From an uncultured Opitutales bacterium (GTDB taxonomy: Bacteria > Verrucomicrobiota > Verrucomicrobiia > Opitutales > Seribacteraceae), in contig CAJQKB010000153.1 in the NCBI GenBank assembly GCA_905478775.1, positions 1-57,633 on the forward strand: DNA of 57,633 nucleotides, in the 5' to 3' direction. The notes under the pieces were generated by a model. That model had not been told where the DNA came from, did no database searches, and was given only the letters and a program-made list of their open reading frames with translations. Positions 5,990-8,243 of the stretch are shown here, piece after piece; within the stretch, counting starts at the first letter, position 1, and each line of letters starts with the position of its first letter. Both the position numbers and the translations under genes were made by a program.

Positions 5990-6631
5990 TTATTTTTGTA
6001 AAATTACTAATAAACTTCCTGACTCAACGGAAACCCAAGCCTCATTCGAAATACACATATTGCTTTGACTAAATGATTCCACGCCAGATAGCACTTGGTT
6101 TTCAATTTCCCACTTCAATCCAGCAGTTTTTACAGAGTTGCAACAAGTAATGGGGAGCAGACTAACTGTCGCACCCTCTTGTCCGATAATCTTTAGTTTT
6201 GTATTTGAAGTTACCCTACGAATCCACTCTTTTTCAGAATCAAAAATAATGATTAGGTCAGAGTCTACCGAACAGGCGATTAGAAAATTGGCGAACAAAT
6301 GATCAGTACGATTCCCTAATCCACCAAGAATAATGATTTCCGTTATATCCGGATATTTTTTCAGGTAATCGAGTGCTTTTTGAAAATCAGTTCTATCCTG
6401 CTCATTTACCTCGATGAGTTCGACCTCCTGTGGAATATCATCCCTAGTCTCCTCCCCTCCCCAACTATCCAAATCCCCGATTAACACATCGGGGAAAATA
6501 TCCGCATGACGAAAGGATAACCATCCGGCGTCAACCGCGATAGAAATATCTGCCTCCTCCCGGCGCCAAAGTAGACTTTCTTCTGAGGGCGGTTCTCCCC
6601 CCATCACTAATAGAGCTTTGCGAAAAGACAT
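5990..6631 (-). CDS. thiN: Thiamine pyrophosphokinase
   Basis: 213 residues. It transfers pyrophosphate from ATP to thiamine, giving the cofactor thiamine diphosphate in the cytosol. Diagnostic motifs are an N-terminal AVDAGW, the metal-binding GDLDS, DRTDFQKAL and GGLGNRTDH, in the order and spacing of the TPK catalytic domain. The C-terminal ~70 residues fit the small thiamine-binding beta domain. It is last in the minus-strand cluster ribE-udg-thiN, 23 bases after the UDG-like gene. No TPP riboswitch was seen upstream of the cluster. Confidence 0.9.
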   Translation of the reverse strand: MSFRKALLVMGGEPPSEESLLWRREEADISIAVDAGWLSFRHADIFPDVLIGDLDSWGGEETRDDIPQEVELIEVNEQDRTDFQKALDYLKKYPDITEIIILGGLGNRTDHLFANFLIACSVDSDLIIIFDSEKEWIRRVTSNTKLKIIGQEGATVSLLPITCCNSVKTAGLKWEIENQVLSGVESFSQSNMCISNEAWVSVESGSLLVILQK

Positions 6632-6654: not shown

Positions 6655-7635
6655 TTAAAGGAAAAATCCCTGTTGTTTTTCACTTATCGAAACTTCCACC
6701 TTTTCCATCACTTTTAACATATCCTCCCATACTTTTCTTTTTCCCGATTTACTTGGATTATGAAGCAGGTAAGATGGGTGATAGGTAACCATGAGGGGAA
6801 TACCTTCATATTCATTCCAATTTCCACGAACATCTCCCAATCTTCTTTTTGAGTCGAACCCAAGAAATCCATCTGTTGCGATTTTACCAAGAGAAATAAT
6901 CACTTTAGGCTGAACAATCTCTAATTGAGCTTTTAGATAGGGCATTGCAAATTGAAGTTCAGCTTGACTGGGTGGACGATGTCCAAAAGCAAGGTCATGC
7001 TTAGGTTTCCAATGTAAAATATTGGAAATATAAACAGAAGGCACCGGAAAACCCATCGCTTCAATAATTTTACCCAGCAATTCCCCCGCCGGTCCTCCAA
7101 AAGCAGAACCTGCCTTTTCATCCTCATCGTTTGGAGATTCTCCACAAAAAAATAATTCTGCATCAAGATCGCCCCTCCCAAAAATTATTTGACCGTCAGG
7201 ATTAATTTCAGAATTTGAAATTGGGCAATTATTGACTTCTTTTTCTAACCATTTCCATTTTGTTCTTTTATCACCCTCGGGCAGTGTAAAGCTGGGCGGG
7301 GTTGCAAACTTTGCGTCATTATCTCCTGACACACCAGCACCTTCTACCGTAATCGTTTTCGGGGGAGCTTGTGAGGCAATAGCCGGGGTGGATTCAGCGG
7401 TATCCACCGAAGTGGTTTCCTGTCTAACGGGATTGTTTCGGGAAGTTGGTACATCCACTGCTTTTTTTTGCGTAGGCTTATTCAAAGGAGAAGCTGGACG
7501 TTCTGGTATCAGCGGTTCCAACTTCTTTTCCAAATGCATGAGTGTCTCCTCCTCAAGATAAATTTCACGCACTCCTTCTTCGCGCATACGCTTGAGTTCT
7601 TCAAGCAAAGCAAAACTGGCTTCTGGAATATTCAT
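6655..7635 (-). CDS. Uracil-DNA glycosylase, family-4-like, lacking most Fe-S cysteines
   Basis: 326 residues from the ATG at 7635, which overlaps the ribE stop (TGATG). The first ~45 residues are helical and charged; about 45-125 is a Ser/Thr/Pro/Ala linker. The UDG fold follows, with GESPNDEDEKAGSAFGGPAG (motif 1) and VTYHPSYLL (motif 2) as in family 4/5 enzymes, which excise uracil from DNA. Family 4 enzymes hold a 4Fe-4S cluster through CxxC near the fold start, a Cys in the KCRPP segment and a Cys before PYL. Here those sites read NNCPIS (one Cys only), ILHWKPK and FAMPYL, so at least three of four ligands are missing. Activity is plausible but a cluster is unlikely. The fold assignment is firm. 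Confidence 0.85.
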   Translation of the reverse strand: MNIPEASFALLEELKRMREEGVREIYLEEETLMHLEKKLEPLIPERPASPLNKPTQKKAVDVPTSRNNPVRQETTSVDTAESTPAIASQAPPKTITVEGAGVSGDNDAKFATPPSFTLPEGDKRTKWKWLEKEVNNCPISNSEINPDGQIIFGRGDLDAELFFCGESPNDEDEKAGSAFGGPAGELLGKIIEAMGFPVPSVYISNILHWKPKHDLAFGHRPPSQAELQFAMPYLKAQLEIVQPKVIISLGKIATDGFLGFDSKRRLGDVRGNWNEYEGIPLMVTYHPSYLLHNPSKSGKRKVWEDMLKVMEKVEVSISEKQQGFFL

Positions 7636-8243
7636 CAAGATAATTGCTCGATTGAAGATGCAGCAAGTTTCTCGACATACTTGGCGAGTAAATCAAATTC
7701 AAGATTAAGCCGATCTCCAGGTTGACGACTCATTAAATTTGTCTTTCCAAGAGTGTGTGGAATTAACCAAACAGCAAATGAATCTCCCGTTACATCACAA
7801 ACAGTAAGAGAACATCCGTCTACCGCAATACATCCTTTATCTACTAAGTACTGCTTGTGAGTGGGAGGTACTTTGATTTGGAGGTATAAGTTTTTTCCAC
7901 GTTCTTCAAAAATTTCAATCTCTCCGCACGCATCAATATGGCCGGTCACAAAATGTCCACCCACCCTACCATTGGCTGGCATTGAACGTTCCAAGTTTAC
8001 GAGATGCCCATCCTGCAAATTACCGAGGTTCGTTCTTTCCAAAGTTTCGTCTAATAAATCAAAGGATCCTACCCCGCTCGAATCTTCACGAAAGGTTAAG
8101 CAGCAACCGTTTACAGAAAGACTAGCACCTGCCTCCATCCCATCCGATCCATCAAATGGAATATCAAGCTTAAGAAGCCAAGATTCTTTCTTTTCTTCGA
8201 ACGAAATTACCCGCCCGACATTTTCTACTATTCCGGTAAACAT
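7635..8243 (-). CDS. ribE: Riboflavin synthase, alpha chain
   Basis: 202 residues. It dismutates two 6,7-dimethyl-8-ribityllumazines to riboflavin. The N-terminus MFTGIVENVG is the family signature. Two lumazine-binding repeats are visible: the first holds VNGCCLTF and the second GHIDACGEI, then DGCSLTV and a C-terminal KTNL. Length is typical (about 200-220). It is first in the minus-strand cluster with the UDG-like gene and thiN, linked by a one-base TGATG overlap. No FMN riboswitch fits in the 87 bases upstream. Some nomenclatures use ribC for this gene. Confidence 0.95.
   Translation of the reverse strand: MFTGIVENVGRVISFEEKKESWLLKLDIPFDGSDGMEAGASLSVNGCCLTFREDSSGVGSFDLLDETLERTNLGNLQDGHLVNLERSMPANGRVGGHFVTGHIDACGEIEIFEERGKNLYLQIKVPPTHKQYLVDKGCIAVDGCSLTVCDVTGDSFAVWLIPHTLGKTNLMSRQPGDRLNLEFDLLAKYVEKLAASSIEQLS

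Follow-up and report, generated by a model that had tools for sequence, protein, structure and literature searches.

A family-4-derived uracil-DNA glycosylase predicted to lack its [4Fe-4S] cluster in an Opitutales bacterium

Gene and genomic locus

The window, i.e. the whole stretch of DNA analysed here (57,633 nucleotides from an uncultured Opitutales bacterium), carries at 6655..7635 on the minus strand a coding sequence for a uracil-DNA glycosylase (UDG) that is derived from family 4 and is probably cluster-free. The protein has 326 aa when translated from the ATG at 7635 and 327 aa when translated from the TTG at 7638; residue numbers given below start at the TTG, and those of the ATG start are lower by one. 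The ATG overlaps the stop codon of the upstream gene by 4 nt (ATGA). This upstream gene was named ribE, riboflavin synthase alpha chain (7635..8243, minus strand), and the downstream gene was named a thiamine-pyrophosphokinase-like protein (TPK; 5990..6631, minus strand), both products being named by sequence reading only. Both are conserved neighbours. The order ribE-UDG-TPK was common to the window genome and to family members that retain three of the cluster cysteines (3-Cys), and this shared locus indicates that one gene was altered in place.

The reading frame and its UDG identity, as proposed in the initial annotation, were real: the protein matched the Pfam UDG family (PF03167) at 2.3e-29, and in a sequence search against solved structures its top matches were the family-4 enzymes TTUDGA (1ui0, 7e-32) and TM0511. 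A viral origin was rejected, since a scan of viral contigs gave zero relatives and the phage UDGs were distant (29-37% identity among the best matches).

Domain architecture and fold

A two-helix segment conserved in Opitutales was recognised in the structure model at the N-terminus (residues 2-46; 7501..7635, minus strand), with helices at 3-19 and 29-39 in ATG numbering and a pLDDT of about 65. It is followed by a disordered linker rich in Pro, Thr, Ala and Ser (residues 47-118; 7285..7500, minus strand), for which the pLDDT was below 50 over 41-103 and 24-36 in the core. A long Ser/Pro-rich linker had been pointed out before; its length is real (72 residues, with 10 Pro, 10 Thr, 9 Ala and 7 Ser), but it is not a hallmark of this protein, because relatives with all four cluster cysteines (4-Cys) also carry an N-terminal helix and a linker, and it was dropped as a special feature.

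The UDG catalytic domain (residues 119-327; 6658..7284, minus strand) was modelled by AlphaFold with a pLDDT of 96.1. When the modelled domain was compared with the PDB, the top matches were all family-4 UDGs (1vk2 with Z 27.8, then 1ui1/1ui0 with Z 26.2 to 1ui0), followed by UdgX with Z about 24-25. The structural comparison with TTUDGA suggested in the initial annotation accordingly gave a family-4 fold for the model, with Z about 26 to 1ui0/1ui1.

Positions of the cluster ligands

The [4Fe-4S] cluster of family-4 enzymes is bound by four cysteines, two in a CxxC pair and one each in KCRPP and xCxPYL. In the alignment, the first of these is kept as C138 (7225..7227), the second is replaced by S141 (7216..7218; CPIS for CxxC), the third by W210 (7009..7011; LHWKPK for KCRPP) and the fourth by A231 (6946..6948; FAMPYL for ACxPYL), all on the minus strand; the tree places the loss of the third Cys on the branch leading to a large clade. 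The replacement of three of the four ligands had been noticed from the start, and the motifs CPIS, LHWKPK and FAMPYL quoted for it were correct. UdgX H95 aligns at the Cys3 position.

Only two cysteines, C138 and C165, occur in the whole window protein. C165, located in the strand that precedes motif A, was rejected as a compensating ligand, since the 3-Cys relatives carry it as well. Replacement cysteines near the cluster pocket, the finding that the initial annotation had named as contrary to its proposal, were looked for across the window protein and none was found. With the states C138/S141/W210/A231, a conventional four-Cys [4Fe-4S] site is impossible from the sequence, and we infer that the window protein has no bound cluster. 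The comparative data support, at the level of sequences, the idea of a cluster-free offshoot. A sequencing or assembly error was ruled out as the source of the ligand loss, because the same state is present in eight genomes of one clade.

A metal site might still persist, either as a variant Fe-S or zinc site formed by C138 and non-Cys ligands or as a bridge between two subunits. C138 is invariant within the window subclade, which fits such a site, and C1, C2 and C4 are well kept in most Opitutales, suggesting that a three-ligand site existed just before. However, one Cys is left there with no other Cys near, and Cys2 disappeared together with Cys4 in two lineages that are well separated, a pattern that fits an all-or-none abandonment of a site. 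We regard a persisting metal site as very unlikely.

Stepwise loss of the ligands

Ligand states were surveyed in Verrucomicrobiota, and a tree was built from 157 distinct domains (8 of the window subclade and 149 others). Of the order's 132 genomes, 126 have a UDG orthologue, and the phylum sample gave matches in 225 of 241. All four cysteines were present in 20/20 homologues taken from the phylum's other classes and in those of the families f30, f31, f32, f34 and f35 of the same class. The loss of Cys3 was placed as a single event on the branch leading to a Verrucomicrobiota clade with 122 tips (UFBoot 99), which contains the Opitutales together with the Verrucomicrobiaceae/Akkermansiaceae types. 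An aromatic residue took its place in 119 of these 122 (W 72, F 43, Y 4, other 3). Most Opitutales retained the other three positions (CCWC, DCWC, CCFC); C1+C2+C4 were found in 47/122 clade members and C2+C4 in 19 more. On the Akkermansia/Prosthecobacter side the CxxC pair is mostly gone, for example in W/A/F/C.

The window subclade comprises eight genomes (the query and L032-L038), in which Cys2 and Cys4 were lost. CCWC was retained by the 3-Cys sister L163 and by every other sampled member of the genus. The clade of the eight plus L163 had a support of 100, but the monophyly of the eight had a support of 36, so either one or two losses of Cys2 and Cys4 are possible. In L100, an Opitutales sequence nested in 3-Cys relatives (support 100), the same three ligands were lost independently (C/G/W/G), and the HWRP motif is common to L100 and the window subclade. 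A third case of ligand loss is L108, whose placement is weaker (support 76). Judged from these sequences, the window UDG is the endpoint of a stepwise loss, in which Cys3 went first and Cys2 and Cys4 recently. The phylogeny of Fe-S-less homologues that the initial annotation had proposed showed the subclade to be no isolated oddity. One part of the proposal did not hold: the protein is not a separate branch of the superfamily, and the tree and the ribE-UDG-TPK locus instead show it to be orthologous, by vertical descent, to the verrucomicrobial family-4 enzyme. Horizontal import was ruled out by the same two lines of evidence.

The survey also showed that family-4 UDGs of the Akkermansia/Prosthecobacter type (L124, L125, L127, L058, L060-L077) mostly have one cluster Cys left. 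Separately, many Opitutales UDGs (L013, L019-L021, L093, L099, L102, L103, L105) carry Asp at the first-Cys position (DPVC..NWRP..YCLPYL), and it is possible that this Asp is a ligand of a residual site.

Active site

With the NCBIfam family-4 model TIGR00758 (UDG_fam4) the window protein scored 114.7 bits, below the cut-off of 125.3, and the tested subclade members scored 114-120. The 3-Cys and 4-Cys relatives scored 154-209 bits, and the 3-Cys relatives as well as the ligand-poor L100 and L124 passed the cut-off (153-159). Ligand loss alone therefore does not explain the divergence of the subclade, and database annotation may hide cluster loss in such proteins.

The residues of the active site were assigned by alignment, with residue roles taken from TTUDGA (PMC5387724). 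Motif A, GESPNDEDE (7117..7143, minus strand), contains E167 (=E41), N170 (=G44) and D173 (=E47), and motif B, HPSYLL (6763..6780, minus strand), keeps H287 (=H155). Also kept are N206 (=N80, uracil recognition; 7021..7023, minus strand) and F180 (=F54), so equivalents of E41, F54, N80 and H155 are all found in the window protein. Both catalytic motifs, GESPNDEDE and VTYHPSYLL, are present as first quoted. H209 (=K83; 7012..7014, minus strand) is a His also in the independently ligand-poor L100, while H220 (=N89 of TTUDGA and H109 of UdgX; 6979..6981, minus strand) is a His in this subclade only.

Nine changes were specific to the subclade, several of them in motif A and its helix. E47 is changed to D in 8/8 members and is Glu in 99% of the 149 others; N89 is changed to His in 7/8 members and in 0/149 other homologues, the remaining member (L038) having Asp there. 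Further pocket changes confined to the subclade are G44 to N/S/Y, P53 to A/V and V55 to G, and motif A in the remaining members reads GEAPN, GEAPS, GEAPY or GDAPN. These active-site changes (E47D, G44N, N89H), on which the initial annotation was silent, are more distinctive than the ligand loss.

In TTUDGA, E47 has been reported to keep thymine out and N89 to place the attacking water, with k2/Km about 100-fold lower in the E47A mutant and k2 down roughly 6- to 9-fold in N89A (PMC5387724). Since E47D, G44N and N89H lie in or next to these activity-relevant positions, the enzyme may have changed in activity or specificity. The changes E47D, P53A/V and V55G might open the pocket, in which case the main substrate would be a 5-substituted or otherwise damaged base and not uracil. 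The Asp at the thymine-blocking position in all eight members and the accumulation of changes in motif A and its helix are what such a shift would lead one to expect. However, Asp retains the charge, and the uracil-reading equivalents of N80, F54 and H155 are unchanged. Furthermore, this is apparently the sole UDG in the genome, and without uracil activity U:G would stay unrepaired. A main substrate other than uracil is considered rather unlikely.

Maintenance of the gene and cellular context

In pairwise comparisons within the subclade, dN/dS was 0.014-0.061 for the catalytic domain versus 0.24-0.71 for the N-terminal part. Purifying selection on the catalytic domain is very strong, which is evidence of a function without saying which. 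In a search of the window genome (a draft, 95% complete) with PF03167, this UDG was the only match. Ung (TIGR00628) was found neither among the NCBIfam matches of the protein nor across the 95%-complete draft genome. In two other subclade genomes, G362 and G364, there is a second, weaker UDG-family match of Ung-like length.

These data bear on the view that the gene is decaying or encodes a non-catalytic pseudoenzyme. The phylum does contain degenerate UDG paralogues (L129, L130, L104). However, the low dN/dS and the absence of any other detected UDG-superfamily gene in the genome make decay unlikely, the main catalytic residues are all kept in the window protein, and the intact ORF, the synteny and the orthologues in eight genomes also speak against it. 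A pseudoenzyme is considered highly improbable.

The degenerate genes are of two kinds. L129 (G228:C2) and L130 (G149:C1) represent a second UDG paralogue of Akkermansiaceae type with TDAPG as motif A, TH for TN at N80 and YNPSYLL; with the catalytic residues gone, they are probably non-catalytic. L104 (G100:C31) is an orthologue of the UDG in which the motifs are broken (SEYPN, YNPSYLLL), and it is likely decaying.

The window genome encodes SufB/SufD and a MutY with the canonical C-x6-C-x2-C-x5-C. This ruled out that the organism had lost Fe-S enzymes in general; the cell can still build clusters, and the loss is specific to the UDG. An observation on another glycosylase concerns the Opitutales endonuclease III (G000:C74:16921-17571, L171/L174, and 29 more loci, L175-L203), in which the cysteines are mostly spaced as C-x4-C-x4-C-x2-C and not as C-x6-C-x2-C-x5-C. 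The cluster model PF10576 was matched in 4/42 family genomes, but it is a weak model of 17 positions and its matches were at the E-value limit, so the Cys spacing of Nth was read directly from sequence. Opitutales endonuclease III possibly has a variant cluster site.

Proposed mode of action and significance

The window UDG is likely a cluster-free and catalytically active enzyme of family-4 type that was vertically inherited. Studies on related enzymes support this reading: PMC5295032 reports that Cys-to-Ser replacement in the P. furiosus and A. fulgidus family-4 enzymes removed about 40% of the activity and left about 60%, and that cluster disruption reduced the thermostability of a family-5 enzyme. 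The family-4 cluster would be mainly a structural staple, which may have become dispensable once an aromatic residue held the Cys3 position; W210 could pack into the vacated cluster space. Uracil would be flipped into the pocket and bound by N206 and F180, H287 would stabilise the leaving uracilate, and water would attack C1'. H220 stands in place of the water-positioning Asn89 and probably serves to position or activate that water. Most likely, the enzyme is the main UDG of the cell and begins the base excision repair of deaminated cytosine.

It has long been asked whether the [4Fe-4S] clusters of DNA glycosylases serve as structural staples or as redox/charge-transport sensors. The window UDG would provide a natural experiment on the cluster's role, since here the lineage of a marine bacterium's only detectable UDG lost the ligands and remodelled the active site while selection preserved the gene. 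Ligands were removed stepwise from one orthologous gene, and versions with four, three and one Cys occur in related living bacteria. The cell, which retains Fe-S assembly and a MutY with canonical ligands, seems to depend on a ligand-stripped UDG.

Comparison with known systems

The window UDG is like the family-4 enzymes (TTUDGA 1ui0, TM0511 1vk2, S. tokodaii 4zbx) in the fold of the whole domain (Z 25-28), in motif B (HP(A/S)xxL, with the catalytic His, here H287), in the equivalents of E41/F54/N80/H155, and in its descent from a 4-Cys family-4 enzyme as indicated by the tree and synteny. It is unlike them in being without three of the four [4Fe-4S] cysteines, in motif A (GESPN versus GE(A/G)PG), in D173 for E47 and in H220 for N89.

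The last of these changes places a UdgX-like residue outside UdgX. In UdgX, His109 is the cross-linking nucleophile and is made nucleophilic by the E52-H109 dyad (PMC10359453). By analogy, H220 could attack C1' and trap the abasic site covalently, which would make the window UDG a convergent cross-linker with a new loop geometry and no R-loop; covalent capture of uracil-DNA would then have arisen a second time. In favour of this, the fold resembles that of M. smegmatis UdgX (6ail/6ioa; Z about 24.5), a His nearly exclusive to the subclade (7/8) stands at the H109 position, and E52 and D56 have equivalents in E167 and D171. However, Phe stands for R107 and S168 for Q53, and the R-loop KRRIH is missing (LAFGH instead); the loop of UdgX is longer by about 4 residues. 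R107 and D59 of UdgX are required to hold H109 and even for folding (PMC10776899). In addition, subclade member L038 has Asp at this position, and the window protein scored 110 bits with the UdgX model TIGR03914 against a cut-off of 189.95. Covalent capture is considered quite unlikely. UdgX itself holds a [4Fe-4S] cluster, unlike what is predicted for the window protein. Among more than 1000 sequences checked, only R107+H109 (UdgX) or P107+N109 (family 4) were found (PMC10359453), and the His of the subclade without R107 or an R-loop is a combination not reported in that check. Since defining features of both family 4 (ligands, motif A, cut-off) and UdgX (R-loop, Q53) failed, the window UDG was classed as a family-4-derived cluster-free variant.

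It also differs from family 5 (UDGb), which has GLAPA and HPSPLN where the window protein has GESPN and HPSYLL. BdiUng 5gn2 (Foldseek, 16% identity), S. mutans 3ikb (Z 15.8) and E. coli MUG 1mug (Z 14.1) share the same alpha/beta UDG fold as much weaker matches; their families are separate and, unlike the window UDG, are without a 4-Cys family-4 ancestry inside one genus-level lineage.

A natural clusterless MutY is known (Trasvina-Arenas et al. 2016, as cited in PMC5295032 and PMC11078426). It is likewise a DNA glycosylase that naturally lost the ligands of its [4Fe-4S] cluster, but it has the helix-hairpin-helix fold and an adenine substrate, whereas the alpha/beta UDG fold is found here. 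This precedent reduces the surprise of a ligand-stripped UDG; the linked change of N89 to His increases it, and so do the intermediate steps of the loss, which, in contrast to the case of MutY, survive in living relatives.
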